From NCBI RefSeq assembly GCF_900182955.1, contig NZ_FXUL01000024.1, positions 1 through 64,000 on the forward strand: a DNA stretch of 64,000 nucleotides, given 5' to 3'. This DNA comes from Noviherbaspirillum suwonense. Lineage in GTDB: Bacteria; Pseudomonadota; Gammaproteobacteria; Burkholderiales; Burkholderiaceae_D. The notes beneath the pieces were generated by a model, which saw nothing but the letters and a program-made list of their open reading frames with translations, was not told where the DNA came from and ran no database searches. Positions 26,065-47,863 of this stretch are shown here, piece by piece. The translations under genes and the position numbers were made by a program. Every line of letters starts with the position of its first letter. Position 1 is the first letter of the stretch.

Positions 26065-26123
26065 TGCTACTTCTCCGGATTGAGTTCCCGACGTGATCCG
26101 TCGGGATCGAAGTGATGCGATGG

Positions 26124-27236: not shown

Positions 27237-27294
27237 GATCGTCTCCTTGTCGACCTTCTCGGTCTTGTTGAACGCCGCGACTGCGGAAATTGGA

Positions 27295-29113: not shown

Positions 29114-29171
29114 ATTCCCCTCCCCCTTTGTGCTGGCCAGTTGACCAGGTCTGGCGATTTCTCGCGATTTT

Positions 29172-30171
29172 TTATCGTTCCACTACTTGCATCTGATGGG
29201 CCAAGCGAGCGGCTGCGGTTGCCGCCTCGGCCACCGTCCGTTGCACGACTTCGGCTGCGCCCGGGATGTCGTCGACCAGAGCAGCCGACTGACCCAGCCA
29301 AGCGACGCTTCCACGCATGTCGCCATCGATGATCGCGCGCTCGTTGACGTCGGCGCGAACCATGCCGAGTATGGTCTCGCGAGCCGCCCGCTTTCTCTAC
29401 GTCGAGAATCTTGCTGGCCCATTCGTTGGCCAAGGCCCGCCCGGGGGTGCCCACCGATCGCTTGATGACTACCGTGTCATCGGCGCCAGCCCGGATCACG
29501 GCATCCTTGTAGTTCTGGTGCGCGGAGGCTTCGCGTACTGCGATGAAGCGGGTGCCGACCTCCACGCCGGCGGCGCCTAGCGCCAGTGCTGCCGCCATTC
29601 CAAAGCCGTCGGCGATGCCACCGCCTGCCAGCACGGGAATGTTTACGGCGCGCTTGACCAGCGGTATCGCCACCATATTGGTCACGTCTGTGCGGCCGAT
29701 ATGCCCGCCGCCCTCGTAGCCGACGGTCGCCAGCACATGTGCGCCAGCCTGTTCTGCCTTCTTTGCCTGCTCGGGACCGGAGACAAGCACCAGGATGCTG
29801 ATCCCGGTGTCGGCCAGACGATCGATATAGGGCTTGGGATTGCCGCCGGTGAAGGACACCGCCGCCACGCCTTCTTCTGCAACCAGATCGAGCAGGTGGT
29901 CGATCTTGATATGCCCGACAGGAAAATTGACGCCGAAGGGTGCGCTCGTAAGCTGCTTGGTCTTGCGTATTTCTGCGCGCAACAGGTCTGCCTCCGCCAT
30001 CCCGGCGACCGCGATTTGTCCCATTCCGCCAGCGGCAGATACTGCTGCTGCTGCCAGCTCTGCGCGGGAGATACGCGCCAGGCCGCTTTGTACAATTGGA
30101 TAGCGGATTCCCAGCGCTTTGCTGGCCGGGGTGTCGATGCTCATCGGGTGCGCTGTGGAAGGTGCATTCAT
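29172..30171 (-). pseudogene. Nitronate monooxygenase/FabK-like flavoprotein with a frameshift
   Basis: From ATG 30171 the frame reads MNAPSTAHPM, then SKALGIRYPIVQSGLARISR, VSFTGGNPKPYIDRLADTG and LAGGGIADGFGMAAALALGA (FMN phosphate site), the layout of 2-nitropropane dioxygenase family enzymes. Near 29388-29396 one extra base moves the reading frame. The expected C-terminus (RAARETILGMVRADVNERAI to AARLAHQMQVVER) continues in another frame and stops at 29172. Without the shift the protein would be about 333 residues. In-frame and without a stop it is joined upstream to the acyl-CoA synthetase frame. In such operons these proteins may act on enoyl-CoA or nitronate-like compounds; no function can be assigned. 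Confidence 0.8.
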
Positions 30172-32242
30172 GGCTGGTCTTCCCCGGTTGCCGATGACCA
30201 GTGCCTCCACGGGAACGCCACCCTTCCTGCCAAGGATTAACGGATTGACGTCGATTTCGCTGACAGCGTCGCGCAGGTCGGCTGCCAGCGCCGATACCCG
30301 GCATACGGCTTCGGCAAGGGCATCGACATCCAGTGCCGGCACGTTCCGGAAACCGTTCAGCAGCGGCGCCTTGCGCAGCGACAGGATCATGTCCCGCGCC
30401 TGGGAATGGTTGACCGGGGCCAGGGCGACGGCGACGTCGCGGGTAAGTTCGACGTCGACGCCGCCAAACCCGCATACAACCAGCGGCCCGAATTGCGCGT
30501 CGCGGCGGGCACCGATCATCATCTCGACACCCCGTTCGGCCATCTGTTGCACCAGTATGCCATTGAGGATGGGGGTGTCCGGTAGCGCTGCGGCCGTATT
30601 CCGCAGCTCGCTTGCGGCGCGCTCGACCGCGGCCTTGACCGCGCTTGCCGGATTGGCCACCAGTATTTCGCGCGTCACCCGAACCCCGTATGCGGCAAGT
30701 ACTCGCTTGGACTGGCTCTCGCTCAGAGCCGGGCCGTGGCCACTAGCGGCTGCGCCGGCGAATACCTCGCGTGCGGTTTTGGCGTCGCCCTCGGCCGCCA
30801 GCGCAGGCTCCTGCAACAGCCGGTCCCGGTTGTGGTAATGGTCTGTCGACAACTTAAGCGCTTTGATGCAGCGAGTCATGGAGTGGAACATGGAGATTCG
30901 CGGTGAAGCGTCATACACTTCGCTGCCTGGACCGTTGATCCATTCATTGATCCACACCAAGCAGACCGGCTTGTCCAGTTCGTCAGCCAAGCCGGACAGG
31001 AATTGTGCCAGTTCGATCGTGGTCGGACGGTATGCCGACATCATGGGCACAACCACTGCGGCAAAACCTGGATCCTCTGCGAATGCGCGTATGCAGTCGC
31101 CATACATCTGCATGCTCTTGAGCGATTCGGCAGTCAGGTCGCAGGGGTTGGCGGTGGAGCCGAAGTCCGGTACCACGTTTGCCAGCCTGGCCGAGGTGGC
31201 GGCGGCGGGAGGCGGTAGCGCCAGCCCGATTTCCTCGGCTTTGTCGGCCGCCATCACGGCTGCGCCGCCGGAACTCGCCATCACGCCCTCGACTTTGGGC
31301 GGGCCTGACTTGGAGAACAGGACTGCCGTTTCCACGATTGCCTCCCAGTTGTCGATGATTACCATCCAGTGGCGCGGAATGCGGCCTCATATGCAGCTGT
31401 GGACCCTGCCATGGTGCCGGTGTGCGACATGGCAGTTCGCTGACTGATGACACTGTTTGCCAGTTTGTAGATCAGGAGGGGTTTGTCGGCAGCCAATGCC
31501 ATGCGTGCCGCTTCCAGCAGGCGCTCCCCGTCGCGAACGCCTTCGAACATGCAGCAGATCACCTTGGCGGCATTGTCCTCGACCAGATAGTTGATCATGT
31601 CGCAGACGTCGACGTCGCAGGAGTTTCCCGGCGAGAGGTAGTGCGTGAAGCCGATGCCGCGCTCCATCGATTGCATCATGCAGTATCCCAGCGCAACGCT
31701 TTGGGAAATTATCCCGATGTCGCCCTTGACCATGCGCATCTCGTTAAACTTCGGCATGAAGTTCAGGCCCACCATGCTGTTCAGGTTGGCAATACCGACG
31801 CAGTTCGGTCCCAGCAGGCGCATGCCGGACTCCTGGGCGATATACGCCTGCGGTACTGTGTCTGAATGGACTCGGGTTTGCCGACTTCGGCGAAACCGGC
31901 CGAATACAGGATCATGCCGCCCACCCCCACTGCGGATGCGCGCTGCACCAGACCTTCAACTTGCGCCATCGGTACGATTACGATCACGCGATCAGGTACT
32001 TCGGGCAGGTCCTCCAGCCTTGAGTGGCACTTCAGTCCGGAGACCAATTCATAGCGAGGATTGATAGGGTAAATATTGCCGGCGTATCCTATACGAATGT
32101 TGTCCAGCGTTCGTGCTCCGAACGAGCCCAGTGTGTCAGAGGCGCCGATGACGGCAATGCTGGCCGGATCAATAAGCCGCCGCATCTCTTTGCGCCCGAA
32201 AAGTCGCGTGCGGTTCGGTACATAACCCGTTGTCGTTCTCAT
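30172..32242 (-). pseudogene. ADP-forming acyl-CoA synthetase (acetate-CoA ligase type), multiply frameshifted
   Basis: ATG 32242 overlaps the acyl-CoA dehydrogenase stop by four bases. The CoA-binding domain (IDPASIAVIGASDTLGSFG) is in the first frame. Near 31855 a frameshift moves the ligase domain (MRLLGPNCVGIANLNSMVGL) into a second frame. A missing base near 31367 (ATGW-stop, where ATGWVIIDNWE is expected) moves the rest into a third. The ATP-grasp part also seems to lack about 35-40 residues around the usual PVVLK and HK segment. The last frame runs without a stop into the flavoprotein. An intact enzyme would activate an acid with ATP to ADP. As given, this one is broken. Confidence 0.85.
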
Positions 32243-33381
32243 AGTCCCAATTCCCTTGAAATCAGTTGTCGTTGTATCTGCGAGGTGCCGCCGCCCACGG
32301 TAGCGTTGCGGGCATCGCGCCAGTGGCGCTGCATGTTGTAATCGGTGGTGTAGGCATGGCCACCGAGGATTTGCATGCCGGCCGCGGTAACGCGCTGCAA
32401 CATTTCTGAAACGAAGAGCTTGGCCATGCTCGCCTCCTTGCGGCAAGGTAGGCCCTGGTCATAGCGCCATGCGGCCATTGCAGTGAGCCAGCGCCCCGCC
32501 TCCAGTTCTGTTGCCATGTCAGCCAGACTGTGAGCGATTACCTGGAACTGCCCGATCGGACGGCCGAATTGCTGCCTTTCCCGAGCGTAGGCCGTGGCTT
32601 CCTCCAGGGCACTGCGGGCGGTACCGATGTAATTGGCCGCCAAGGTAATTCGTTCGCGTTCCAGGTGGCGCCCGATGTAGGTCCAGCCCTCGCCGGCTTC
32701 GCCGATGAGGTACCTTGATGGCAGACGGACGTCGTCGAAGAATATTTCCGTCAGTCCCAGTATTCGGCGCCCGATAACGTCCAGGCGATTGATCGTCAAA
32801 CCTGGCAGGTTATTGGGGACCAGGAACAGCGAGATACCTTCCTGACGGGTGGCGCCTTTTGCCGTGCGTGCGGCGACGATCATCATGTTGTCCGGCGCAT
32901 CGGCGCCGCTGGAAAATACCTTTTGTCCTCGCAGCAGCCAGTCGTCGCCATCACGACGGGCGGCAGTGGTCAGAGATGCCGCGTCCGAACCGGACTGCGG
33001 TTCTGTCAGGCTGAAGGAAAGCTTGACGTGCCCGGTCGCTACTTTCGGCAGGATTTCCTGTCGCAGATCTTCCGAAGCAAAGTCCGCGAGGATCATTGAC
33101 CCCCAGGCCTGCAGGGCGATGCGGGTTGCGAAGTCAACACTGGGCCGGGCAACTTCCTCGTACAAAATGGTGCAATCTGCCATCGAGCTGCCGAGGCCAC
33201 CGTAGGCAACCGGGACCACCATAGCGACGAAACCAGCCTGCACCATGGCTTGATAGACCGGCTCGGGGAAAATGCCATCGTGGTCCCAAATCCGTACTTT
33301 CTCGTGCGAGCACTCGGTTCGCACCAAGCGTTCGATCGCGGCACGAAGAAGATTCTGCTCTTCAGTTGGTTCGAAATTCAA
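32239..33381 (-). CDS. Acyl-CoA dehydrogenase
   Basis: 380 residues, intact. N-terminus MNFEPTEEQNLLRAAIERLV, FAD/substrate motif KLSFSLTEPQSGSDAASLTT, C-terminal GMQILGGHAYTTDYNMQRHW and VGGGTSQIQRQLISREL. As in the enzyme at 20959, the YEGT Glu is replaced by Gly (VGGGTSQ), suggesting that the catalytic base lies at another position, as known for several branched-chain and sterol-type dehydrogenases. It overlaps the synthetase start by four bases and follows the SDR gene after about 30 bases. Confidence 0.92.
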   Translation of the reverse strand: MNFEPTEEQNLLRAAIERLVRTECSHEKVRIWDHDGIFPEPVYQAMVQAGFVAMVVPVAYGGLGSSMADCTILYEEVARPSVDFATRIALQAWGSMILADFASEDLRQEILPKVATGHVKLSFSLTEPQSGSDAASLTTAARRDGDDWLLRGQKVFSSGADAPDNMMIVAARTAKGATRQEGISLFLVPNNLPGLTINRLDVIGRRILGLTEIFFDDVRLPSRYLIGEAGEGWTYIGRHLERERITLAANYIGTARSALEEATAYARERQQFGRPIGQFQVIAHSLADMATELEAGRWLTAMAAWRYDQGLPCRKEASMAKLFVSEMLQRVTAAGMQILGGHAYTTDYNMQRHWRDARNATVGGGTSQIQRQLISRELGL

Positions 33382-33414
33382 GGGACTACCTCGTCAAGAA
33401 GTGGATGGTTGGCT

Positions 33415-34195
33415 TCAGGAGGCCACGTACTTGAGCCAGCGGCCACCGTCGACAAGCATGTTTTCGCCGGTCATGTAAGAGCCAAGGTCGGACGCCAGAT
33501 AGGTCGCGGCTTTGGCGATATCGATCTTGGCGCCGAAGCGGCCTAGCTCGGTCTTTCTTGCGTTCCAGTTCACCGCGACCAGTGTCGAGGTACATGCGTG
33601 TGAAGCCTTCGGTATCCCCGATCGGCCCGGGCGAGATGGTGTTGACGCGAATCCCGTCCGGTCCCCACTCGACGGCCAACGTGCGCGAGAGTGAAAGTAT
33701 GCCGGCTTTTGCTGCTGCCGCGTGCGCCGCGCCCGGCCAGCCTGTTACGCCAAGCATGGTGATGATGCTGATGATCGAGCCGGCGAACTGTGACCGCTTC
33801 AGGTGTTCATAAGAAGTCAGGCAGCAGTAGAAGGTGCCGTTCAGGTTGATGTCGATCACCGTGCGCCAGCCTTTGGGCGTAAGACCTGCGGTCGGGCACT
33901 GGAAGTTGCCGGCGGCGTTGTTGACGAGGACATCAAGCGAGCCGAAGCGCTCGACCGCATTGTCGATCGTACGCTTCACTTCATCAAAGTCGCGCACATC
34001 GGTACGGAATGCGGCAGCTGTGATCCCCTCGGCCGCGAGTTGCCCGCAGTCCCTGTCCAGGCGCTCCTGGTTGCGGCTGGCTAGCACCACCGTCGCGCCC
34101 AGCCGTCCATAGGTGGCGGCGATTTCCAGGCCAATGTCGCCGGCACCGCCTGTGATTAGTGCGACCCGTCGCTTCAATGTATCGGCAGTGAACAC
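33415..34195 (-). pseudogene. Short-chain dehydrogenase/reductase with a frameshift near its C-terminus
   Basis: Start GTG 34195 overlaps the crotonase stop by one base. The Rossmann motif ALITGGAGDIGLEIAATYG, LVNNAAGNF and the catalytic core are intact through PGPIGDTEGFTRMYLDTGRG. Near 33569 an extra base turns RKKTELGRFGAK into RKKDRARPLRRQ. In the shifted frame the normal SDR end is visible (KAATYLASDLGSYMTGENML, VDGGRWLKYVAS), stopping at 33415. The unshifted frame would end at 33386 with an unrelated tail. Members with this layout include 2,4-dienoyl-CoA reductase-like enzymes. Either the gene is decaying or the base call is wrong. Confidence 0.82.
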
Positions 34196-34977
34196 TATGA
34201 TTTTCCCTTTTGGTTGAGTTTCAAGAGCATCGCGGCAATCGCGGACTGGTGCCCTGCGGTAGATGAGGCCAGTGCGAACGCCTCGGCCTCGTGGGCGAGC
34301 ACGGGCTCAAGTCCCGCTGCCCAGTGTTGCGCACACAATGCCTTGGTTAGCATCAGCGCTTCCCATGGGAGATTTAAAAGATCTGAAGCGAGAGCCCGGC
34401 TGGCGGCATCGAGTTGCTCGGCCGGGACGACCCGCCGCGTGAGACCGAGGTGCTGAGCATCGACTGCGGTAATTGAGCCGCCCGTGAGCAGCAAGTCGAG
34501 TGCGGTAGCGGCATTCGTCTTGGCCTGCAGCAGGGCCGAGGCGCCGCCGTCAGGAACGAGCCCCAGGCGCACGAAGGGGAAGGACAGTTTCGCGTCGTCG
34601 GCCATTACCAGTATGTCGGCCGCTAATGCAAGCGATGCGCCCCCCCCGGTCGCTGCGCCCTGTACCGCTGCGATCACCGGCTTGTTCATGCGGACGATCG
34701 CGATGTGATGGGCTTGCGCCATTCGGATTCGCTCTCGCCAGGCAAGCGGCGATTGCGGCGCGTCGACGATATCCGCACCTGCACAAAATGCCGGACCATC
34801 ACCGCGCAACAGGAGCACTTTGACCGCTTCGTCCTTCCCGACATCGGCCAAGCATTCGCCCAGGCTAGCCCGCATCGTCGGCGAGAGTGCGTTGCGCTTG
34901 TTCGGTCGGGACAAGGTAATCACCGCGAGCCCGTTTGCCTTGTCCAGTAAAACCTCTCCGGATTCTTTCATGGTCAT
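34195..34977 (-). CDS. Enoyl-CoA hydratase/isomerase, PaaG-like
   Basis: 260 residues from ATG 34977 (ATG 34971 is an alternative; AAAGACGA lies upstream). Crotonase marks: LAVITLSRPNKRNALSPTMR, FCAGADIVDAPQ and GAATGGGASLALAADILVMA. The segment FPFVRLGLVPDGGASALLQA is PaaG-like, lacking the second Glu of classical hydratases. It is the first gene after the sigma54 promoter at 35009-35024, with a leader of only about 20 bases, and leads the operon that contains the TRAP transporter. Confidence 0.9.
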   Translation of the reverse strand: MTMKESGEVLLDKANGLAVITLSRPNKRNALSPTMRASLGECLADVGKDEAVKVLLLRGDGPAFCAGADIVDAPQSPLAWRERIRMAQAHHIAIVRMNKPVIAAVQGAATGGGASLALAADILVMADDAKLSFPFVRLGLVPDGGASALLQAKTNAATALDLLLTGGSITAVDAQHLGLTRRVVPAEQLDAASRALASDLLNLPWEALMLTKALCAQHWAAGLEPVLAHEAEAFALASSTAGHQSAIAAMLLKLNQKGKS

Positions 34978-35008
34978 TGATCGTCTTTGTGATTGGTGAG
35001 TGTCAATT

Positions 35009-35024
35009 AGCAATGTATGTGCCA
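35009..35024 (-). promoter_or_regulatory. Sigma54 promoter for the crotonase-to-TRAP operon
   Basis: On the minus strand the bases read TGGCACATACATTGCT, a full match to TGGCAC-N5-TTGCW with the ten-base GG-GC spacing (-12 GC at 35010-35011). Transcription should begin near 34998, about 20 bases before ATG 34977. An AT-rich site related to the 16391 palindrome lies about 65-85 bases upstream (35087-35108). Confidence 0.87.
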
Positions 35025-35350
35025 CGCAGCCAAAAGCGATGGCAATTCGTCGATGTGACAGAATTATTGGCGCAAGCCATTGTTCCGTATAGAGTTTTTA
35101 AATTGTAGTCAGTGGATAACCGGCGCGTCGGAGTTGTCGTCGGCGCGCTGCCCGCAAAGTCGGGCAGGCTAGTCGGTGTATTTGGCACAGGCAAAAGGCT
35201 GCTCATGGCGAAGACAGGCAATTTGTCATGTCTGCGCTTTTGGGCCTTTCAGCTTGGTCCACCATCGGCGATCTGCTTGGTCAATTCGCTCCGGACGAGT
35301 GCGTGCAATATATCCGCCATGCCGGCTATAGCATGTCAGACTAAAAATGC
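35025..35350. other. Upstream region of the 35024 promoter, no gene
   Basis: No supported gene. The stretch contains GTATAGAGTTTTTAAATTG and TAG just after it (35087-35108), similar in the TTTTTAAA core to the candidate activator site at 16391-16407. It ends at the terminal repeat of the ISL3 element (35351). A short plus-strand frame from 35112 has no homology and is not called. Confidence 0.5.
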
Positions 35351-35850
35351 CTCTATTGAAATTTGAGTGGGTTCAATTCCCGGGTCAAGGGCGGGCGTAG
35401 CCCGGCGCAGCACACCCTTGATGCGGCAATTGAACCCGTTATGCTTGGGCTGGCTAAGTCCGGCAGAATGACGGACTCAGCCATGCCAACCCAATAGCAA
35501 TCATGACCAATCAACTGTTTGAAGCCGCCTTGGGGATCAAGGCTCCCTGGTTCGTCCAGAGCGTGAATTTTGATGAAGCCAGCCGCCAATTGACGATTGG
35601 CGTGGATTTTGTGGCGGGCAGCCGCTTCGCGCACGCGGATGCGCCCGGCGAACATCCGGTGCACGATACCCAGATCAAGCGGCTGCGCCACCTCAATTTC
35701 TTTCAGCATGAATACTACCTGGAAGTGCGGTTGCCGCGCGTGCGCCTTGCCAACGGCAAGGTACGCCAGGTCGAGCCGGAATGGGTCGGCCGGCTCGACG
35801 GGTTCACGCTGTTGTTCGAGGCGCTGGTTCTGGCGATGTGCCAGCAAATG
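35351..35850 (+). mobile_element. ISL3-family element, left half (terminal repeat plus N-terminal 116 transposase codons)
   Basis: The terminal repeat is at 35351-35373 (CTCTATTGAAATTTGAGTGG then GTT). The transposase starts at ATG 35503 and gives 116 codons ending CQQM at 35850, with the ISL3 N-terminal zinc-finger/HTH region (LGIKAPWFVQSVNFDEASRQ, RLRHLNFFQHEYYLEVRLPR). At 35851 the homology switches to an IS4-family transposase. The missing C-terminal half, starting PFAAVARLVGLSWHR, is found in opposite orientation at 43443-42565; joined, they give a normal 408-residue ISL3 transposase. Confidence 0.85.
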
Positions 35851-36525
35851 CTTTTACGGATTGCATGGCCGGGGCTGCCATTTCATCGTGCGTGAACACG
35901 CCTCAACACCGCACCCGCAGGCGCTGGAGCAAACGCGGCATCGGGGAAGGATAGAAACAGGCACGGTGTATGAACAGACAGTTGAAATCGAGGATGACGC
36001 GGGGCAACGATTGCGCCTGCGGCGCGTGGAATTGCAACTCGATCACGCCACCGAAGAAGGCGACACCACAATCTGGATTCTGACCAATCTGTCCGCATCG
36101 CAGTTCACGCTGCGCAGGATTGCCCGCGTGTACCGCCAGCGCTGGCAAATTGAATCGCTATTCCAGCGCCTCAAATCGGTCCTGCACAGCGAGGTCACTT
36201 CGCTGGGGCATCCGCGTGTGGCGCTATTGGCTTTCGGCATGGCCGTGCTCTCGTATAACATCCTGTCCTTGCTGCGGTCTGCCGTGTGGAGCGCGCATGA
36301 ACTGCACACCAGTGACATCGAGCTATCTTCGTATTTCTTCGCCTGCGAATCCGCACGAACTATGCCGGCATGATGGCCGTAGCGCCTGCTGCCTGGGAAC
36401 GATATGACAGACTCAAGCCTGCTCAGTTGGCACAGACGCTATTGCGCATGGCGGCCCATGCCAACCCAAGAGCATTGCGAAAGCATCTTGGAAGCACCAT
36501 AAAAAAATGTATGGTCCGTCCCTGA
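35851..36525 (+). pseudogene. IS4-family transposase, C-terminal half (severed by inversion, frameshifted)
   Basis: From 35851 the frame reads FYGLHGRGCHFIVREHASTP and continues to the Y-R-E-K region YRQRWQIESLFQRLKSVLHS (Glu of the DDE triad). Near 36350 a base seems to be missing (SSYFFACE then frameshift). The true C-terminus (NYAGMMAVAPAAWERYDRLK to RALRKHLGSTIKK) follows in the next frame to the stop at 36523-36525. The first half, with the two Asp residues (RIVDGNHL and WTADRNF), is at 44072-43444 on the minus strand. Reversing the 35851-43443 segment rejoins RNFSTRR with FYGLHG. Confidence 0.85.
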
Positions 36526-36760
36526 TTTGCAAGGCGCATTTTCTTTGACGTGAACAGTTTGCCTTAATGTATCCGGCCTCTCGCAAGTGAACTACTGTTG
36601 TAGTCAGGCCGTGATGAAATACGCGCACCCGGTTTCTAAAAAACCTGTCGGGCTTTTGCACCCATTTTTTTTTAAAGATTTACCGTGTGCCGATTGGCTG
36701 TTTCGTCATCAAATCTGTGTCTCGCAAACTCGGAAGTAACTAGCTAAGAAACATTCACTA

Positions 36761-37759
36761 CTACACTACGGCTTCATCTCGGTCGCCTCGATATAAGCTT
36801 CCCGGCCGCGTCAACACCACCCATGCAACCCTGGCCAACTTGTTGGCCAGGGCAACTGCGACTTTATTGGTATGCATGCGTGTCGCTAGCTTTGTAATCC
36901 AACTTCCTAGCCTATCCCTCTGACGGTTCAGGTGCAGTACGCAAGAGCGCGCCCCATGGAGTAAAAGTCGTCGGACATAGGAATTGCCTCTCTTGCTCAT
37001 GCCAAGAAGCGTAGTCTTGCCTCCGGTGGAATACTGACGCGGGACCAGCCCGAGCCATGCCGCCATATCCCTTGCCTTGGCGAACTGCTTGCCGTCACCC
37101 ACTGCGGCGATCAGTGCTGTGGCACTAAGCGGTCCAATGCCGGGAATGCTCATGAGACGATGGGCGACTTCGGAACGTGCCGCCAGCACTTCAATTTCTT
37201 TGTTGAGTTCAGCGAGCCTGGTCTCCAGTGCCCCGAATTCCGTCCACAGTCCTTCAAGCAGGATACGCATGCGTGGTGTGAGGTCATTGGAATCGTCAGC
37301 TAGTGCTGCTGGAAAGTCAGTCTTGAACATACCTACGCCTTGCCGGATTGCAATGCCAAATTCTAGGCAAAATGCCCGGATCTGATTGATTAGCTGGGTC
37401 TTGCTGCCGACAATACGATCGCGGATGCGGGGCAGCGCTTGGATCTCAAGCTGCTCAGTCGACTTCGGTGTCACAAAGCGCATGCTGGGCCGCGTCACGG
37501 CCTCGGCAATCGCCGCAGCGTCTACCAGTTCGTTTTTGTTGGATTTGACATAGGGCTTCACAAACTGAGCGGGAATGATTCTGACTGTATGCCCCATCGT
37601 TGCCAGCTTCCTTGCTACCCATTGAGACCCGGGGCAAGCTTCCATGCCAATCAAAGCGACGCTGGCGTTGGAAAAAAAGTGAAAAAGGGTTTGACGCGTC
37701 AGCGTCACGCGTTGAACAACGCGCCCGCTGGAGTCGGTGCCGACGACGTGAAATAGATT
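36761..37759 (-). pseudogene. IS110-family transposase, 5'-truncated
   Basis: The minus-strand frame runs from NLFHVVGTDSSGRVVQRVTL (beginning at 37759) to a stop at 36761. It has the IS110 core (LIGMEACPGSQWVARKLATM, IPAQFVKPYVKSNKNE) and the C-terminal transposase-20 domain (HRLMSIPGIGPLSATALIAA, RRLLLHGARSC). About 12-15 N-terminal residues with the first catalytic Asp (GIDLAK) are missing at the junction to the livM leader. The usual NDxxDAEAI reads NELVDAAAI. It is therefore inactive. It probably replaced upstream liv genes. The 234 bases from 36526 to 36760 hold nothing I can identify. Confidence 0.85.
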
Positions 37760-37796
37760 TTAAAAAATCATCGACCGCGTTTAAGGAGGCAACAGG

Positions 37797-38873
37797 ATGT
37801 TTTATCAAGAAAATGGTCAACTCAAGACCTCGTACCGGACCGACCAGCAGATTTTTCCCATCCTTCAAAACCGCTGGGCGATGATTGCTATTCTCGGCTT
37901 TGCATTTCTCGGGATTCCTCTACTGGCCGACGAATATCTGTTTCGCGCAATTCTCATTCCTTTTCTGATTCTGGCGCTGGCCGCGCTTGGCGTGAATATC
38001 CTGGTCGGCTATTGTGGGCAGATCTCGATGGGCTCGGGCGCCTTCATGGCGGTGGGTGCCTACATGGCCTACAACACCTACATTCGCATTGACGGCATAC
38101 CACTGATTGTGGCGTTGCTCGCGGGGGGCTTCTTCGCAACACTAGTCGGTATATTCTTCGGTATTCCAAGCTTACGTGTCAAGGGTTTGTATCTTGCAGT
38201 CGCTACGCTGGCAGCGCAGTTTTTTTGCGACTGGGCATTTCTGCGTATTGGCTGGTTCACCAACAACAGTTCCTCGGGCTCGGTGTCGGTCTCGAAGCTG
38301 GAAGTATTTGGCTGGGCGGTCGAATCACCACTGGCAAAATATCTCTTCTGCCTGATTTTCTTGGTAGCGTTTGCTCTGCTGGCGAAGAACCTCGTGCGCT
38401 CAGCCATTGGACGTGAGTGGATGGCCATCCGCGATATGGACGTCGCGGCGGCCGTCATCGGCATCCGCCCCATGTACGCTAAGCTCAGCGCCTTCGCTGT
38501 AAGTTCCTTCATCATCGGCGTGGCCGGTGCCTTGTGGGGCTTCGTGCATCTAGGGGCGTGGGAACCGGCGGCATTCTCCATCGACCGCTCCTTCCAGCTT
38601 CTGTTTATGGTCATCATAGGCGGCATGGGCTCCGTCATGGGCGCCTTCTTTGGTGCGGCCTTTATCGTCGTGCTGCCCATTTTTCTTAGCCAGTTCCTGC
38701 CTTTAGTAGGCGCGTTCGTCGGCATACCGATCTCCACGGCTGCGATCTCCCACGTGGAAGCCATGGTCTTTGGCGCCCTTATTGTCTGGTTCCTCATCGT
38801 CGAGCCGCATGGTTTAGCGAAACTGTGGAGCACAGGCAAACAGAAGTTGCGGTTGTGGCCGTTCCCGCACTAA
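37797..38873 (+). CDS. livM: Branched-chain amino acid-type ABC transporter permease LivM
   Basis: 358 residues with about nine or ten hydrophobic helices. The N-terminus has a 30-residue hydrophilic lead. Family motifs include LGVNILVGYCGQISMGSGAF, and the EAA-like loop AIGREWMAIRDMDVAAAVIGIRPM that contacts the ATPase. AAGGAGG lies upstream of ATG 37797. It forms half of an inner-membrane channel; its normal partner LivH is not in the window, and the truncated IS110 sits directly upstream where livH or livG would be expected. The following genes encode a binding protein and LivF, on the same strand within the inverted segment. Confidence 0.92.
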   Translation: MFYQENGQLKTSYRTDQQIFPILQNRWAMIAILGFAFLGIPLLADEYLFRAILIPFLILALAALGVNILVGYCGQISMGSGAFMAVGAYMAYNTYIRIDGIPLIVALLAGGFFATLVGIFFGIPSLRVKGLYLAVATLAAQFFCDWAFLRIGWFTNNSSSGSVSVSKLEVFGWAVESPLAKYLFCLIFLVAFALLAKNLVRSAIGREWMAIRDMDVAAAVIGIRPMYAKLSAFAVSSFIIGVAGALWGFVHLGAWEPAAFSIDRSFQLLFMVIIGGMGSVMGAFFGAAFIVVLPIFLSQFLPLVGAFVGIPISTAAISHVEAMVFGALIVWFLIVEPHGLAKLWSTGKQKLRLWPFPH

Positions 38874-38933
38874 GAGCAATGAAGCAGTTTAGTTCCCGTA
38901 GCTTTTCTTCACCTTCCAACGAGGAGACATAAA

Positions 38934-40265
38934 ATGAAAATTCGATCATTTATCCGCTCAGCCGCTCTTGCTACAGTGATGTCCACTGTACTGACCACCC
39001 CTTCGGCATTCGCACAGGCGAAGGAACAATTTTTCCCATTACTGACGTTCCGGACCGGCGCATATAGCCCGAGCGGCACACCATGGGCCAACGGGTTCGT
39101 AGATTACTTCAAGCTCGTCAATGAAAAAGGTGGCATTAACGGCGTCAAAGTGATTTGGGAAGAATGCGAGACCGGTTATGCCACGGACCGCGGCGTTGAA
39201 TGCTATGAGCGCCTCAAGGGCAAACACGGCGGCGCGACCGTCTTTCAAACCATGTCAACCGGTATCACCTTCGCACTGACCGATAAGGGGCCGTTGGATG
39301 GCATCCCTATTCTTACCCCCGGCTACGGGCTGAGTGAAAGCGCCGATGGCACAGTATTCAAATGGAGCTTCCCGATCGCAGGTTCCCACTGGGCATCAGC
39401 GGATACGCAATTGCAGTATGTCGCAAAGAGAGCAGGCGGCCTTGACAAGCTAAAAGGCAAAAAAATTACCCTGCTTTATCACGACAGCCCGTATGGCAAG
39501 GAAGCGATTGCAGTTCTGGCCAAGCGCGCTGAGATGCACGGCTTCGAGTTGACAATGATTCCAATACCTCATCCGGGCGTTGAACAAAAGTCGGCGTGGC
39601 TGCGTATTCGTCAAACACGCCCTGACTTTGTACTGCTGTGGGGCTGGGGCATTATGAACAGCACCGCCCTCAAGGAAGCACAGGCGACGGGATATCCGGC
39701 TACCAAGATGATCGGCGTATGGCCCTCTGGCTCTGAGTCGGATGTCAAAGGCATTGATGGCGCAACGGGCTACAGCGCAGTACTGATTCAACCGGGTCCC
39801 GGTGCCAACTCCAAAATCGCGAAGGAAGTGTTGAGCACATTGCATGCGAATGGAAAGGGCAGCGGGCCTAAGGAGGAAGTGGGTGAAGCACTTTACATGC
39901 GTGGACTGATGAACGCCATGTTTGCTGTAGAGGGAGTGCGCAAGGCGCAGGAACGTTTCGGCACGGGAAAAGTCATGACCGCCGCACAGGCTCGTTGGGG
40001 TTACGAAAATCTGGATTTCGACCAAAAGAAAATCGAGGCAGCCGGACTTAAGGACGTCATGAGGCCGTTCGCGACTACCTGCACCGACCACATGGGGCCG
40101 TCATTTGCACGGGCTTACAAGTGGGACGGCAAGGAATGGAAACTCGACTCCGACTGGCTTGAAGCAGACAGGTCGATTCTCCAGCCCATGGTCATGGCTG
40201 CGGCCAGCAAGTACGCTGCAGATAAGAAAGTCGAAATCCGCGGCGCTGACGACTGCAAGTCCTGA
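38934..40265 (+). CDS. ABC transporter periplasmic substrate-binding protein (LivK-like family)
   Basis: 443 residues with signal peptide MKIRSFIRSAALATVMSTVL...AFAQA and the type I periplasmic fold: LLTFRTGAYSPSGTPWANGF, LKGKKITLLYHDSPYGKEAI, WGWGIMNSTALKEAQATGYP. It is larger than, and only distantly related to, the binding proteins at 18403 and 61004, and belongs to a group usually encoded with LivFGHM near aromatic-acid CoA ligases. It lies between livM (60 bases) and livF (78 bases). The probable ligand is the carboxylate later activated by the ligase at 41216. Confidence 0.9.
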   Translation: MKIRSFIRSAALATVMSTVLTTPSAFAQAKEQFFPLLTFRTGAYSPSGTPWANGFVDYFKLVNEKGGINGVKVIWEECETGYATDRGVECYERLKGKHGGATVFQTMSTGITFALTDKGPLDGIPILTPGYGLSESADGTVFKWSFPIAGSHWASADTQLQYVAKRAGGLDKLKGKKITLLYHDSPYGKEAIAVLAKRAEMHGFELTMIPIPHPGVEQKSAWLRIRQTRPDFVLLWGWGIMNSTALKEAQATGYPATKMIGVWPSGSESDVKGIDGATGYSAVLIQPGPGANSKIAKEVLSTLHANGKGSGPKEEVGEALYMRGLMNAMFAVEGVRKAQERFGTGKVMTAAQARWGYENLDFDQKKIEAAGLKDVMRPFATTCTDHMGPSFARAYKWDGKEWKLDSDWLEADRSILQPMVMAAASKYAADKKVEIRGADDCKS

Positions 40266-40343
40266 TTGTGCCAGGCTGCCGTGCAAAAACATCATCGCAC
40301 TGCAGTCTGGACTCGCACAAAGATAGAAAACGAGGCACTTCAT

Positions 40344-41153
40344 ATGAGCACTCCCAGTACAGTTTTATCCGTCAATGGCATCGAAGTCATCTACAACCAC
40401 GTCATCTTGGTGCTCAAGGGCGTTTCGCTCACCGTACCGGAAGGCAAAATCGCCGCCATTTTAGGTGGGAATGGCGCAGGCAAGACTACAACCCTGCGCG
40501 CGATTTCTAATCTACTGAAGGGGGAACGCGGAGAGGTCACTAAAGGTAGTATCGAACTGCGCGGCGAGCGCATTGAGAACCTGTCTCCGGCAGACCTGGT
40601 GCAGCGCGGCGTGGTGCAAGTCATGGAAGGACGTCACTGCTTTGCCCATCTTACGATAGAAGAAAATCTGCTGACCGGTTCCTACACGCGCCGCAATAAG
40701 GCTGAAATTGCGCGCAACCTAGAGAAGGTCTATAACTACTTTCCGCGTCTGAAAACCCGACGTACCTCGCAGGCCGCTTACACCTCCGGTGGTGAGCAGC
40801 AGATGTGCGCGATTGGCCGCGCGCTTATGACAAACCCGAGCGTGGTGCTGCTGGACGAACCCTCCATGGGCTTGGCACCACAGATTGTCGAAGAAGTATT
40901 CGAGATCGTCAAGGACCTTAACACGCGCGAAAAGGTGACCTTCCTGCTGGCCGAGCAAAACACCAACATGGCACTCAAATACGCCGACTACGGCTACATC
41001 ATGGAATCCGGTCGTGTTGTCATGGACGGCCCTGCGTTTGGGTTACGCAACAACGAAGATGTCAAGGAGTTTTATCTTGGCGTCGGCGGCGGGGAGCGTA
41101 AGTCTTTCAAGGACATCAAGAGCTACAAACGTCGCAAGCGCTGGCTCGCCTGA
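40344..41153 (+). CDS. livF: ABC transporter ATP-binding protein LivF
   Basis: 269 residues from ATG 40344. ATPase motifs in order: Walker A GGNGAGKTT, Q-loop region MEGRHCFAHLTIEENL, signature TSGGEQQM, Walker B VVLLDEPSMGLAP, switch His replaced in LLAEQNTNMAL (normal for LivF, which has Q-N here). LivF works with LivG as a heterodimer; livG is absent from the window. It is followed after 62 bases by the PaaK-type ligase gene. The C-terminus SFKDIKSYKRRKRWLA is slightly longer than usual. Confidence 0.93.
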   Translation: MSTPSTVLSVNGIEVIYNHVILVLKGVSLTVPEGKIAAILGGNGAGKTTTLRAISNLLKGERGEVTKGSIELRGERIENLSPADLVQRGVVQVMEGRHCFAHLTIEENLLTGSYTRRNKAEIARNLEKVYNYFPRLKTRRTSQAAYTSGGEQQMCAIGRALMTNPSVVLLDEPSMGLAPQIVEEVFEIVKDLNTREKVTFLLAEQNTNMALKYADYGYIMESGRVVMDGPAFGLRNNEDVKEFYLGVGGGERKSFKDIKSYKRRKRWLA

Positions 41154-41215
41154 GCCCGTAGCTTGCTCACCCTGCACGCTATCCCTTAACCGATCTCACC
41201 GAACCCGCACCCGCC

Positions 41216-42487
41216 ATGAATGCATCGATCCTTGCCAGTTACGACAGCCTCGAAACACGCGATCCTGCGCATCGCGAGGCCGAGCAGAATACTGCGCTGC
41301 CAGCACTGATCACGCACGCCCAGCGCCACAGTGTAGCGTTTGCCAAAATACTGGAGGGCGTCGATGCGACGGCCATTACCAGTCGTGAAGCACTGGCACG
41401 CCTACCTGTGACACGCAAGTATGAACTGCTCGAACGTCAGCAGGCGGGGCGTGCTAAAGACCCCTTTGGTGGCTTTTCCACCGTCTGTTTCGGAAGCAGG
41501 ATGCCGCGCGTATTCGCCAGCCCCGGCACGCTCTACGAACCCGAAGGTACGGGGCCTGACTATTGGCGCATGGCGCGTGCCATGTTCGCTGCGGGATTCC
41601 GCCCGGGCGAACTGATCCATAACTGTTTTTCATATCACTTCGTTCCCGCCGGGGCCATGATGGAAGCCGGCGCACATGCGCTGGGCTGTACTGTATTCCC
41701 CGGTGGTACAGGCAATACCGCACAGCAGGTAATCGCCATGGCCGATCTGAAGCAGTCTGCTTATATTGGCACCCCAAGTTTCCTGAAACTCATCTTAGTC
41801 AAGGCGTCCGAAATGGGGATTACTCTGCCGAGCATCACAAAGGCGGTGTTTGGCGGGGAAGCTTATCCGCCCAGTCTGCACCGGTGGTACATCGAGCGCG
41901 GCATCATCGGCTACCAATTCTACGGCACGGCGGACCTGGGCTTGGTCGCCTATGAAACCGACGCGCGCGAGGGCATGGTGCTCGACGAAGGTGTAATCGT
42001 CGAAATTGTGCGGCCCGGAACGGGCGATCCAGTCCCAGCGGGCGAAGTCGGCGAACCGGTAGTGACCCCCCTGAATCTGACCTATCCGCTGATACGCTTT
42101 GGCACCGGCGATCTGTCCGCCTTTGTCCCTGGCACCTGCCCGACCGGACGCACCGGCCAACGGATCAAGGGCTGGATGGGTCGTGCCGACCAGAGCGCCA
42201 AGGTGCGCGGTATGTTCGTACACCCTTCGCAGGTGTCCGACATCATGCGGCGTTTCCCTCAGGCTCAAAAAGCCCGGTTGGTGGTCAGCGGCGAAATGGC
42301 CAACGACCAGATTTGCCTGAAAGTCGAAGCAGACGACGCTCACGGCAATCTGCGTGTGCTGATGCAGACGGCGCTGCGCGATGTCACCAAACTACGTGGC
42401 GAAGTCGAGGTCGTGCCACTGAACAGTCTTCCTAACGACGGCAAAGTGATCGACGATACCCGCATGTTGGCGCCGACCGAAAACTGA
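41216..42487 (+). CDS. PaaK-type (phenylacetate-CoA ligase family) AMP-forming ligase
   Basis: 423 residues, matching the short PaaK/CoF-type adenylating enzymes rather than long acyl-CoA synthetases. Visible: LARLPVTRKYELLERQQAGR at the start, FSYHFVPAGAMMEAGAHALG, YQFYGTADLGLVAYETDARE with the ATP-binding region, YPLIRFGTGDLSAFVPGTCP and GWMGRADQSAKVRGMFVHPS. No classical P-loop is evident, as in many PaaK relatives. It would activate the acid imported by the ABC system just upstream. Downstream lies the right half of the ISL3 element. Confidence 0.85.
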   Translation: MNASILASYDSLETRDPAHREAEQNTALPALITHAQRHSVAFAKILEGVDATAITSREALARLPVTRKYELLERQQAGRAKDPFGGFSTVCFGSRMPRVFASPGTLYEPEGTGPDYWRMARAMFAAGFRPGELIHNCFSYHFVPAGAMMEAGAHALGCTVFPGGTGNTAQQVIAMADLKQSAYIGTPSFLKLILVKASEMGITLPSITKAVFGGEAYPPSLHRWYIERGIIGYQFYGTADLGLVAYETDAREGMVLDEGVIVEIVRPGTGDPVPAGEVGEPVVTPLNLTYPLIRFGTGDLSAFVPGTCPTGRTGQRIKGWMGRADQSAKVRGMFVHPSQVSDIMRRFPQAQKARLVVSGEMANDQICLKVEADDAHGNLRVLMQTALRDVTKLRGEVEVVPLNSLPNDGKVIDDTRMLAPTEN

Positions 42488-42508
42488 CTCACAGGGGATG
42501 CGGACGTT

Positions 42509-42526
42509 TTCTTGGACTGGTTTATG
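42509..42526 (-). repeat. 18-base match to the IS3 orfB end at 53507-53524
   Basis: The reverse complement of 42509-42526 is CATAAACCAGTCCAAGAA, identical to 53507-53524, which spans the stop codon of the IS3-family orfB there. It is probably a small leftover of an IS3 end next to the ISL3 terminal repeat. Confidence 0.55.
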
Positions 42527-42543
42527 TCGTTAATCCCAGACCG

Positions 42544-43443
42544 CTCTATTGAGTTTCGAGTGGGTTATGCGGCATGTGGGTTGATTTTTGTGAAGTCGAG
42601 TTTTCCGGCGATCAAGAAGAGCACGGTGCGCATGGTTGTAAATCGCACGAAGCCGCGGGCCTTGCGTTTGGCCGCCTGGAACAGGCCATTGATGGCTTCG
42701 ATAAAGCCATTGGTTTGGCGCGTTTGCGTCCATACGACGATGCCGTCAAAGTGATTGCGAATCATTTTTGCCACGTCCTTCATCGGCTCGACTTTGGAGC
42801 GCATCACATTGGTACACCATTGGGCCAGCATGGCAGAGACGACATGAATCTGCTTGCGGTCGAGGATGTCGCGCAACTGCTCGCGATACAGCCAGGCGCG
42901 CGCAGTACGCTTGCTGGTGAACCGGGCCACCAGCGCATCCAGATCGCGTCGCTGCTCGACGTGCAGCTGGTTGCAGTCCTTGAGCAGCGCCCAGCGCAAT
43001 CCCTTCAGATCAGGATCGGTCTTTTGTTCAAGACGGCGCATCTTGTCGAGGGCGGCCGAGGCATGCGCAATCACATGAAACTTGTCGAACGTCACGCGGG
43101 CTGCGGGCAAGTGGGTGGCCACACCCTTGATGAAGGCGGGCGACATGTCGATGCTGACCGAGGCGATCTGCTCCGGATCGGCCCCGTGCTCGCGCAAGTG
43201 CTGCGCAAACTCGGCGACGGTTTTGCTATTGCGCTCCGGAGTAACAAAAATCACGCGCCGCGCAGCCATGTCGGCCACCAGCGTCAGATAGTTGTGGCCA
43301 CGCCGGGACGAGGTTTCATCAATGGCGACCGCTGATACCTGCGACAGGTCGGCTGCATCGGTCACCAGTTCCACGTAGCGCGCGCAAATCGCATGGACCC
43401 GATGCCAGGACAGCCCAACCAGGCGCGCCACCGCGGCAAAGGG
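42544..43443 (-). mobile_element. ISL3-family element, right half (C-terminal transposase plus terminal repeat)
   Basis: The minus-strand frame begins PFAAVARLVGLSWHRVHAIC at 43443 and ends FDTK-like LDFTKINPHAA at 42565. It holds the ISL3 DDE domain (VSAVAIDETSSRRGHNYLTL, VSIDMSPAFIKGVATHLPAA, ARVTFDKFHV, RNHFDGIVVWTQTRQTNGFI). The terminal repeat CTCTATTGAGTTTCGAGTGG then GTT is at 42544-42566. It has the same orientation as the left repeat at 35351, not the inverted orientation an intact IS would show. It is the missing half of the ISL3 at 35351-35850. Confidence 0.87.
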
Positions 43444-44072
43444 CGCCGCGTGCTGAAATTGCGGTCAGCAGTCCACAGATCCCCGGGCTGTGCCTGGCTT
43501 TGCGCCGCTTCCATTAACGAGCGTTCCTGTGCATGAGCATCCTCGCACGGCACCAGATCGACCCCCATGTCCGGGTCGAGGTCATACACCACCAGCGAAT
43601 GACCTGGCAAAGCCGCTCCCCGAAAGCCGCGCAGGGGCTTCAGACGTTTTTCGCTGGCCGGCAAATGGTTGCCATCGACAATCCTCAAGCGGTAGCCGGG
43701 TACGATTGGTGCCGTGTCTTTCAACATGGGCGTCAATACGCCGCCCAGGCGCACCGCGCTTTGCTGCACCAATGCGCGTACCAGATGGGGCGAGGTGCGC
43801 CTGATCTTGTCATACAGCGCCTGCACCGATACCGGCAAGTCCGTGCATGCCTTGGCGGCCGCATGAACAGACGGACGCAACCCGACTGCCACCACAGACA
43901 TCAGTTCCACGGTCGTGGAGAACAGCAGTTCACGCGTGTACTGCGCGCCACATTCCCGTTCGAATAGCTCATCCACCTACGCCGGCTCCAGTGCCCGCTG
44001 TAGCGCCAGTCTGGCCATCACCGTCACCGGGCTTTGTTTGACACAACGTTCCACCACTGCATCCATGATCAT
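43444..44072 (-). pseudogene. IS4-family transposase, N-terminal half (nonsense codon, severed by inversion)
   Basis: From ATG 44072 the frame reads MIMDAVVERCVKQSPVTVMA to RALEPA, then TAG at 43977-43979 where the family has Trp (PAWVDELF), then continues VDELFERECGAQYTRELLFS with RIVDGNHLPASEKR (first Asp) and LWTADRNFSTRR (second Asp) up to 43444. At that point the sequence changes to ISL3. The remaining C-terminal half is at 35851-36525 on the other strand. The element was therefore split by the same event that split the ISL3, and it had also acquired a stop. Confidence 0.85.
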
Positions 44073-44189
44073 CGCAAACCTCCTCGGCTCGTCGGCTCAT
44101 TAAATGCTTTTGCCCCTGCCAAGTGCCGAAATGTTGCAGACACGCTGCAAAAAAGTACCTTTAAAGCGGTGCCTCTCAAGGCCCAGAAC

Positions 44190-44478
44190 TAGCAGGAGTT
44201 GGCCACGCTGCCCGCGCAGGCCTTCTGGCGTCAGTTTCAGCACCAGATGGGCGGCGCGCAGGCACTGACGCAAGTCCCCATCAAGAACCAGACAACCTTC
44301 ACCCAAGGCCTGCAGCAAGTCATTCAGGATTGGCAAAAATCGGTCAAGCAGGCCGTAGGCCAGGCAGATGCGGTATTGCCGTTCCAGGATATTTTCAAAC
44401 AGTGGGGGGGGGGCGGTCTGGGCCTCAGCACAGGACAAGGACGCACCAGCCAAGAAAGGTGTTCGCAATGCCAGCTGA
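44190..44478 (+). pseudogene. Unrecognised protein fragment upstream of phaB, with a ten-G tract
   Basis: A protein-like stretch ELATLPAQAFWRQFQHQMGG to QADAVLPFQDIFKQW, 5'-truncated (in-frame TAG just before). After W a run of ten G (44404-44413) occurs; in one of the frames after it the sequence reads ASAQDKDAPAKKGVRNAS and stops at 44478, overlapping the phaB start. The position suggests a phasin or another PHB-granule protein, but I do not recognise it firmly. The G-run may be a slipped homopolymer. Confidence 0.4.
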
Positions 44479-44878
44479 GCAACGCACGGCACTGGTCACA
44501 GGCGGCAGCGGCGGCCTGGGCGAAGCCATCGCCCAGGCCTTGCACGATGCTGGCCATACCGTGCTGGTCATCCATTCGCCGGGCAACGCCAGCATTGGCG
44601 CGTGGCTGGAAACCCAGGCCAGCGAAGGTTACGATTTCGTCGCCTACGGCGCGGATGTGGCCGACCATGCCCGCTGCCAGGAACTGGCTGACCGCATCCA
44701 CGCAGACGGGCACCTTATCGACATCCTGGTCAACAACGCGGGCATCACGCGAGATGCCACGCTCCGCAAGCTGAGCTACGCCGATTGGGATGCCGTCCTG
44801 CGCGTCAATCTCGTTTCCATATTCAACATGACCCGGCCATTTATCGACGGCATGCTCGAATATAGCGTTCAGACGTGA
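44468..44878 (+). pseudogene. phaB: Acetoacetyl-CoA reductase PhaB, 3'-truncated
   Basis: From ATG 44468: MPAEQRTALVTGGSGGLGEA (NADPH site), AYGADVADHARCQELADRIH, and LVNNAGITRDATLRKLSYAD followed by WDAVLRVNLVSIFNMTRPFI. This matches PhaB closely until about 44860 (DGMLE). Then five unrelated residues precede a stop. The catalytic Tyr/Lys (YSxxK) and the whole second half, about 115 residues, are missing. PhaB makes (R)-3-hydroxybutyryl-CoA for polyhydroxybutyrate. The break shows that a PHB operon was cut here, probably during the IS-driven rearrangement. The next 135 bases hold nothing recognisable. Confidence 0.85.
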
Positions 44879-45014
44879 AATGTCGGGAGGCCCTGTCCAC
44901 CGTTGCGCTGTTCATCGTAGGTCTTCCGCCGGCAGCTATGCCTTGGCTACATTCCAAATAAATTGGTAGATACAGGGTGCTATTGCCCGCGAGCCCGTTG
45001 GTGTTTTTCTGTGT

Positions 45015-45470
45015 TCAGACACTCTTTGCCAGCCACCACGCAGCAATGCGAAATATGAGCGGCGGCAGCAAAAGCATTTGAACAACTGGGACAAGGCCGA
45101 CATCTAATCCCGGCAGAAGCGGCATGTCCACGGTATACGCCCAACGACCCAGCATATTAACGGCCATCCACTCAATGCCGATGCCGATGGAAAGTCCTGC
45201 TGCAAGCATCACAGCAAGGGCTTGGCCGTTTGGTTGCACATACCAATCAAAGCGTCTGAACGTAAGCCAGCCAACTACGAAAATCAGCCAGACCAGGATG
45301 CCATCGCCTAATGCTGCGACGAAGCAATGCCGCCATACTGAATTCCAGTCTTCAAGACCCGCATACAGTGGCGCCTGTGCGACCTCCCAAAGGTAGTTCA
45401 GTGCGACCGCAATGATAAATAGGAGCAGAACCTGTTTTATGTAGACGCTTTGGTTGCCGAACCCTGTCAC
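45015..45470 (-). CDS. Small integral membrane protein following copA
   Basis: 151 residues with four hydrophobic segments: [60 protein letters not shown] and [20 protein letters not shown]. No Cys/Met-rich metal motif is apparent, but NYLWEV and W-rich parts recur in the family. Its start overlaps the copA stop by four bases (ATGA), so it is cotranscribed with and probably related to copper handling. No biochemical function is assigned. Confidence 0.75.
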
Positions 45471-47863
45471 TTGGACGTGCCTCGCAAACGCAGGGCATTA
45501 GTAATTACCGACACCGAACTCAGGCTCATCGCCAACGCCGCAATCATGGGCGAGAGCAGTTGACCAGTGAACGGGTACAGCACGCCAGCCGCCAGCGGAA
45601 TGCCCAATGCGTTGTAGATGAACGCGAAGGCAAGGTTCTGCCGCATGTTTCGCACCGTTTCAGTGGACAAGACTCTAGCTCTTGCAATTGCCCGCAAGTC
45701 GCCCTTTACCAAGGTGATATGAGCGCTGTTGATAGCGACGTCGGTCCCTGTCCCCATTGCTATTCCTACATCAGCTCTCGCTAGCGCCGGCGAATCGTTG
45801 ATTCCGTCTCCCACCATTGCTACTTTTTTACCTTGGCCTTGGAGCTTTTCAACCAAAAGCAGCTTGTCTTGAGGTTTTACCTCGCCATAGACCTCGCTGA
45901 TGCCAAGCTTGCGGCCTACCGACTGCGCGGTCGTCAAGCCGTCACCGGTCGCCATGATGATGTTCAAGCCGTCCTTCCTCAACGTCTCAAGTGCCTCTGG
46001 CGTGCTCGCTTTTATCGGGTCGGATACCGCAAGGAGCCCAGCCAGGCGGCCGTCCGATGCCAGGTACATGACGCTGGCGCCTTGTCCCCGCAGTGCTTCA
46101 GCCTGGTCTGCAAGACTGTGCCAGTCCACTTTTTCCGTGTCCATCAGCGCGGTGTTGCCTATGGCGATACGCCGGCCGGCCACGATGCCGCGCACGCCGA
46201 TGCCGCTGGACGACTCGAATGCCTCCGGCTTATCCAGGGTCAGTCCGCGCTTGTGCGCTTCCGCAACGATGGCATGGGCGAGAGGATGCTCGCTTCCCTG
46301 GTCGATGCTGGCTGCAACCTGCAGCACGTCGTGCTCCGTAAAGCCCGGCGCCGCTACCACGCTGTCGAAAGCCGGCTTGCCTTCGGTCAGGGTTCCCGTC
46401 TTGTCGACGATCAGGGTGTCGATTTTCCTCATGTCTTCGATTGCGGCTGCATTCCTGAACAGAATGCCTTGCGTGGCTGCGCGGCCGGTGGCAGCCATGA
46501 TGGACATCGGGGTAGCGAGACCCAGAGCGCAAGGGCAGGCAATGATGAGGACGGCGACCGCATTCACGAAGCCGTACACCCAGCTTGGTTCTGGGCCGAA
46601 CAAACCCCATCCGATCAACGTCAGCAACGCAATGCTCACCACGGCGGCCACGAAATAGCCGGCGACAACGTCTGCCAGTCGCTGCATCGGCGCGCGCGAG
46701 CGCTGGGCGCCGGCGACCATCTGGACGATTTGGGAAAGCATGGTTTGCGAGCCGACCTTGTCTGCCCGCATTATCAGGCTGCCGCTGGTATTGATCGTCG
46801 CCCCAATAAGCTTGTCGCCCGGGCGTTTGGTCACTGGTATCGGCTCCCCGGTGAGCATGGATTCGTCCAGAGCGCTTTCGCCTTCCAGTACGGCACCATC
46901 CACCGGGACTTTTTCGCCAGGGCGAACGCGCAGGGCGTCTCCGATATGGACATGGGTAAGCGGTATGTCTTCCTCGATGCCATCCTGCCTGATTCTGCGG
47001 GCCGTCTTCGGCGCCAGGCCCAGCAGCGCCTTGATGGCAGAGGAAGTCTGCGAGCGGGCCCGCAGCTCCATTATTTGCCCCAGCAGCGTGAGGGAAACGA
47101 TGACCGCGGCCGCCTCGTAATAGACGCCTACACGGCCGCCATGGCTGGCAAAGGCCGCCGGAAACAAGCCGGGCGCGACAGTGGCAACGAGGCTGTAACC
47201 GTAGGCCGCAGCCACGCCGGACCCGATGAGTGTCCACATATTGGGACTGCGGTTGGCGATTGACCGGGCCCATCGCACGAAGAAAGGCCAGCCGGCCCAT
47301 AAGACGACAGGGCTGCTCAAAGCGAGCTCGACCCAGTTCTGGTACGGAAGTCCATTCGGGAGCAGCAAATGGCCAAACATCGCCAGCGAAAAGACGGCAA
47401 GGGACAGGGGAAGCGTCCACCAGAAGCGGCGCCGGAAGTCGACCAGTTCGGGATTGTCTTCGTCGTCGAGCGACGGCATCAGCGGCTCCAGTGCCATGCC
47501 GCAGAGAGGGCAATTGCCAGGCTTCGATTCCTGAATCTCGGGATGCATCGGACAGGTGTAGATCGTGCCTTCCGGCGCAGCGGGCGCTGATGTGCGCTCG
47601 GCATGCACCGGCGCCAGGTAGTTCTGAGGATGTGCCTGAAATTTGGTCATGCAGCCGGCACTGCAGAAATGATAATCGGTACCGTTGTATTCGATCGTCC
47701 GCCCAGGCTTCGCAGCAACCTGCATTCCGCATACCGGGTCGGTGAATCGTTGCTCGGGACTCGGCGCGACGGCTGTATGGCCATTCCCGGCTCCGCCATC
47801 AGCGTCATGATGCGCCGCATGTTCGTGCCCTGCGTGATGCGAGTGCTCGGTCTTGCTGTCCAT
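45467..47863 (-). CDS. copA: Copper-translocating P1B-type ATPase
   Basis: 798 residues. N-terminal modules in order: a His-rich lead ([13 protein letters not shown]), a YHS domain (DPVCGMQ...YHFCSAGC), and a heavy-metal-binding YTCPMHPEI...[10 protein letters not shown] segment in place of an HMA domain. The ATPase core follows: phosphatase loop MTGEPIPV, membrane metal site [10 protein letters not shown], phosphorylation site [11 protein letters not shown] motif SEHPLAHAI, and [19 protein letters not shown] marks Cu(I) or Ag(I) export. ATG 47863 has AGGAG upstream. A chaperone-like gene and a CueR-type promoter precede it. Confidence 0.94.

Follow-up and report, generated by a model that had tools for sequence, protein, structure and literature searches.

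A 7.6-kb inversion in Noviherbaspirillum suwonense with one breakpoint inside each of two unrelated transposase genes

When the ends of a bacterial inversion lie in insertion sequences (IS), recombination between IS copies is the usual explanation. For Burkholderia and Shigella, the available portions of two reports tie inversion boundaries to repeats or IS (PMC6307245, PMC8072062). Deletions at 4–11 bp repeats have been interpreted, in the part of that report at hand, as alternative end joining (PMC8149714), and the repair of repeat-induced breaks has been described for mycobacteria (PMC3519483, available in part).

Here we describe an inverted segment of ∼7.6 kb, with one breakpoint inside each of two unrelated transposase genes, one of the ISL3 and one of the IS4 type (Table 1). 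It lies in a stretch of 64,000 nucleotides from N. suwonense (the window), which forms the start of a 105-kb contig. The locus resembles the inversions of Burkholderia and Shigella in having both boundaries in transposase genes. However, repeated sequences are found at the boundaries there, as far as the available text of the reports goes (PMC6307245, PMC8072062), whereas the two families here are unrelated and have only 2 bp in common at the joins. Little or no homology, a small deletion at a join and the presence of ku and ligD are features shared with Ku-LigD non-homologous end joining and with alternative end joining. Unlike the end-joining deletions described in a laboratory mutant in the available part of the report (PMC8149714), the outcome here is an inversion with two breaks and reciprocal joins, in an assembled genome. 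As in phase-variable invertible segments, a piece of kilobase scale has been reversed, but the joins carry no inverted repeats, no invertase was found among the proteins tested, and the search of the assembly turned up no second orientation. A survey of titles and abstract openings, which covers part of the literature, yielded no report of an inversion without homology whose breakpoints lie in two unrelated IS, although such a report may exist in print.

Table 1. Features of the inverted locus (positions in the window).
Feature	Position	Strand	Basis or contents
Inverted segment	35851..43443	.	IS4 C half, IS110-type transposase gene, livM, substrate-binding protein, livF, AMP-ligase, ISL3 C half
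Left inversion join, ISL3 N half / IS4 C half	35850..35851	.	
Right inversion join, ISL3 C half / IS4 N half (opposite strand)	43443..43444	.	
ISL3 left end and N-terminal 116 codons (codons 35503–35850)	35349..35850	+	Pfam, reference transposases, reference terminal repeats
ISL3 right end and C-terminal 292 codons (codons 42568–43443)	42542..43443	-	Pfam, reference pairing, reference repeats
IS4 C-terminal half (codons 35852–36370, then frameshifted tail)	35851..36503	+	DDE_Tnp_1; same-genus copies
IS4 N-terminal half with left terminal repeat, outer base 44171 (gene part 43444–43976)	43444..44171	-	Same-genus copies
IS110-family transposase gene inside inverted segment	36761..37708	-	Transposase_20 and DEDD_Tnp_IS110 (Pfam)
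Open frames livM, substrate-binding protein, livF, AMP-forming ligase	37797..42487	+	Carried by the inversion

Two transposase genes divided by the joins

The Pfam profile HTH_Tnp_ISL3 is divided between positions 27 and 28, exactly at the join. Positions 3–27 match residues 92–116 of the ISL3 N-terminal half (E = 0.0003), with a score of 20.6 bits that falls under the family cut-off of 27.4 bits because the domain is cut by the join, and positions 28–51 match residues 1–24 of the C-terminal half with 28.6 bits, over the cut-off. DDE_Tnp_ISL3 follows downstream in the C-terminal half (E = 4e-66). The split element thus carries, across its two halves, the two domains by which an ISL3 transposase is recognized, and its N-terminal half is up to 82 % identical in amino acids to ISL3 transposases. 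Put end to end, the halves give a protein of 408 residues (116+292), the length first reconstructed for it. Reference loci were drawn mainly from a scan with the C-terminal half, with one more from a relative and one from a plasmid. Eight of the 83 loci compared gave no pair under the distance filter, some owing to contig ends. In 73 of the other 75 loci, and in 75 of the 79 pair rows, the two halves are directly adjacent, without the gain or loss of a single base. Several of these loci are copies inside one genome, so that the 75 are not independent.

Reference ISL3 elements have the left terminus GCCTCT.. and, in most cases, the right terminus GGCTCT.., and exact 8-bp target duplications flank 22 of 74 loci, some of which are copies of one another, none being detected by script at the others. 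The preliminary description placed the terminal repeats of the window element at 35351 and 42544, both in the same orientation. The orientation is as an inversion predicts, but the ends actually lie 2 bp further out, at 35349 and 42542; at the right end, the outermost base differs from the references. The 8-mers outside the two ends are unrelated. Lacking a target duplication, the element would not be a plain, undisturbed insertion even in the uninverted order. Its sequence suggests a rearranged copy of the family, with both ends present and no flanking 8-bp duplication.

The C-terminal half of the IS4 transposase matches DDE_Tnp_1, while a Pfam search with the N-terminal half gave no match. 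Three same-genus IS4 copies, all from one genome (G001) and 75–79 % identical in DNA overall, served for comparison: region 35853–36503 is 75–76 % identical to two of them, and region 43436–44083 is 79 % identical to all three. The N-terminal half (43446–43976, minus strand) and the C-terminal half (35852–36370, plus strand) correspond to a single gene in all seven plasmid loci compared, taken from 20 and 22 records with a match, and likewise in all three same-genus copies. This is what is expected of a divided IS4-type DDE transposase. In the plasmid loci (7/7), the matched halves are separated by two codons, compared with one in the window, which is itself divided by the join. The extra codon appears in seven of eight pair rows; the eighth is a second alignment of a frameshifted copy (L091), with 5 instead of 6 bp. 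Similarly, each of the three same-genus copies has exactly three bases where the window has the join. IS4 is therefore 3 bp shorter than every reference, and the exchange was not perfectly conservative. These bases were probably lost at the break. It could also be that the copy was already one codon short, an older indel that happens to sit at the join, which we consider less likely.

The IS4 element is also degenerate elsewhere. An in-frame stop lies near the start of the gene, just upstream of 43976, and a frameshift occurs near its end; similarity stops at 36503, and no right terminal repeat was found. The left terminal repeat at 44171 resembles that of a same-genus copy (L160) in which both repeats are present, together with an exact 11-bp duplication, such duplications being found in four of eight reference IS4 elements. 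The window element has the left repeat only, and the arrangement of two repeats within an 11-bp duplication is absent.

As judged by sequence comparison, one inversion of 35851–43443 is confirmed as an explanation for both hybrid joins and for all four transposase half-genes. The half-gene positions first described are borne out by the Pfam profiles and the paired reference loci, and the proposal of a single inversion with one breakpoint per IS is supported, since it accounts for every half. The further claim that both joins are in frame at base level, once reversed, needs to be qualified. It holds fully for ISL3, in which nothing was lost and the halves abut as in the references; the IS4 halves are likewise in frame and belong to one gene, but 3 bp are missing at their join.

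Could the arrangement be an assembly artefact, with part of the contig assembled in reverse or the halves linked by chimeric reads? The assembly is a draft of 78 contigs, which makes such errors conceivable. However, two reciprocal joins would need to fit each other, neither join contains a run of N, and no second full copy of either IS that might confuse an assembler was found. Among the best 40 of 49 candidates, the left hybrid region matches only itself in the assembly. For the right hybrid region, the best 40 of 108 candidates gave a match to itself, to a 74-bp ISL3 relic in the same window and to a 36-bp stretch on another contig, and the IS4 N-half protein matches only itself in its own genome. 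With neither IS appearing as multi-copy in the assembly and the joins fitting each other, such an error would be hard to produce, and we regard it as decidedly unlikely.

None of the plasmids, phages and same-genus genomes compared showed the uninverted order. A near search of plasmids with 34900–44700 returned nine records, all of them ISL3 parts at 73–77 % identity, and the same region had no match in phages. The exact left join was found in none of the viral contigs searched. Three other genomes of the genus contain IS4 copies or partial matches, none with the inversion locus.

Further IS-related features occur elsewhere in the window. The ISL3 relic mentioned above (60552–60625) is a right-end fragment 86 % identical to 42545–42618. 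A cation-transporting P-type ATPase gene at 50041–52213 is split into two open reading frames, with transposase genes at its end (51916–52701 and 52810–53511). A DDE_5 transposase gene at 62549–63769 represents a further IS in this IS-rich region.

Sequence at the joins and origin of the inversion

The parental sequences share one base on either side of the join, 2 bp in all, so each join can be placed over three positions. The flanks are 23 % (left) and 30 % (right) identical over 100 bp. The local alignment of the left flank (200 bp) was matched or beaten by 285 of 500 shuffles. The best local alignment of the right flank is a 10-bp match that lies ∼170–190 bp from the join, out of register, and was equalled by 31 of 500 shuffles; we read it as chance. 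A repeat search of 34000–46000 found no inverted pair at the joins, and neither breakpoint lies in inverted homologous copies. With 2 bp shared, low flank identity and no inverted pair, homologous recombination is unlikely, in agreement with the preliminary description. By eye, a short inverted repeat can be seen around the ISL3 join, with none similar at the IS4 join.

A chimeric transposase was considered as a product of the joins and rejected. The frame is lost at the join in both hybrid open reading frames, which end 14 and 27 codons later, so no fusion transposase is formed.

Homologous recombination would have to be assigned to inverted copies of a third element, later lost without trace. 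Repeat recombination is the usual account of IS-associated inversions, as the available portions of the reports on Burkholderia and Shigella present them (PMC6307245, PMC8072062), but a clean loss would be needed at both sites, and the joins retain no inverted pair of repeats. We consider this extremely unlikely.

The reading that we favor, with a probability of roughly 75 %, is that two double-strand breaks, one per transposase gene, were mis-joined by end joining. In the ancestral layout, ISL3 on the plus strand and IS4 on the minus strand would have lain ∼7.6 kb apart, flanking the transporter/ligase operon. Both genes would have been broken, presumably simultaneously, and repair would have joined the wrong ends and so reversed the segment, with the 3 bp of IS4 probably lost in the event itself. 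The joins are reciprocal and have little or no homology, as end joining predicts, and together with the tiny loss these properties fit the mis-joining of two double-strand breaks. On contig C5 of the genome, a ku gene (298 aa) stands immediately before ligD (884 aa), whose product has phosphoesterase, ligase and polymerase domains. From their sequences, this adjacent pair makes Ku-LigD joining possible without being proof of it. Ku/LigD may have sealed the breaks in place of another end-joining route, and 2 bp of shared sequence would not be enough to separate Ku-dependent from other end joining.

The same 2 bp might instead reflect template switching at short microhomology during replication, without two breaks and end joining. 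Template switching often leaves duplicated flanks, and the exchange seen here is reciprocal and left the two genes 0 and 3 bp short; we therefore judge this route unlikely.

Inversion by a site-specific recombinase or a transposase, possibly reversible, has in its favor the transposase genes around the segment and the size of the shared sequence, as serine recombinases use a 2-bp overlap. However, the two sites have no common core beyond these 2 bp and do not form a pair of inverted sites, and the breaks lie within genes rather than at the ends of the elements. Pfam searches with 25 window proteins revealed transposases but no other recombinase, and no contig was found to carry the opposite orientation. 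We judge inversion by such an enzyme very unlikely, although one encoded at another place might act on the segment.

As regards the position of the breaks, the IS stretches listed, which exclude the DDE_5 gene at 62549, make up 9 % of the window and 32 % of the region 33386–45470. If two breaks were placed at random, the chance of both hitting IS would be ∼1 % in the window and 10 % (0.32 squared) in the narrower region. Breaks in IS genes would damage no host gene, and rearrangements at such sites would be expected to survive; survival of this kind would be enough to explain why both breaks are found in IS under the end-joining reading.

The inverted operon and its surroundings

The substrate-binding protein of the inverted operon has a match in 72 of 145 genomes, including its own. 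To compare the operon, wide regions of nine relatives and a second copy in the same genome were examined, giving 10 regions. The second cluster of livM, binding protein, livF and ligase genes (G000:C29:34887-36140, L142) encodes a binding protein 45 % identical to that of the window. The four genes keep their order and run in one direction in nine of the 10 regions (eight of the nine relatives and the second copy); the remaining region (L135) shows no ligase before the contig end.

Reversing the segment would make the operon co-directional with genes for an ECH, an SDR and an acyl-CoA dehydrogenase at 32239–35025. A co-directional cluster of the ligase with ECH/SDR, predicted on this basis for relatives, was not seen in the 10 regions compared. 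No ECH match at E 1e-8 is present in any of them, and a weak SDR match (31 and 33 %) occurs in two. With ECH in none of the regions, the order of the operon is neutral with respect to the inversion.

The left flank (26008–35256) is a catabolic gene cluster of ∼9 kb that is 97–98 % identical, with one small indel, to contig C6 of G432, a genome from the same family but a different genus, which suggests, at the level of sequence identity, a recent transfer. The match ends at 35256, where another gene follows in that genome; this upstream neighbor, which we take to encode an MFS transporter (L161:15060-16415), is not the ligase, and the comparison is neutral as to the inversion. At 35226–35344 of the window, the last codons of the gene that is whole in the other genome run into a tail of 32 codons, presumably IS630-like, for which a Pfam search gave no match.

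It is barely credible that the segment is a reversible switch, in which an unrecognised recombinase acting on unrelated short sites in the IS genes would turn the transporter/ligase operon towards or away from a neighboring promoter. The inversion looks neutral, and we propose no function for it.

A readable case of illegitimate recombination

We conclude that the event is an inversion of a known kind, illegitimate recombination, with breakpoints resolved to within a base or two. The two unrelated IS act only as markers of the breaks at base level, and the event can thus be read as end joining. The biology is ordinary and the resolution unusually good, which makes the locus a cleanly readable case of a known type of accident. 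Split IS genes of this kind could serve to count non-homologous inversions in genomes with and without ku-ligD.
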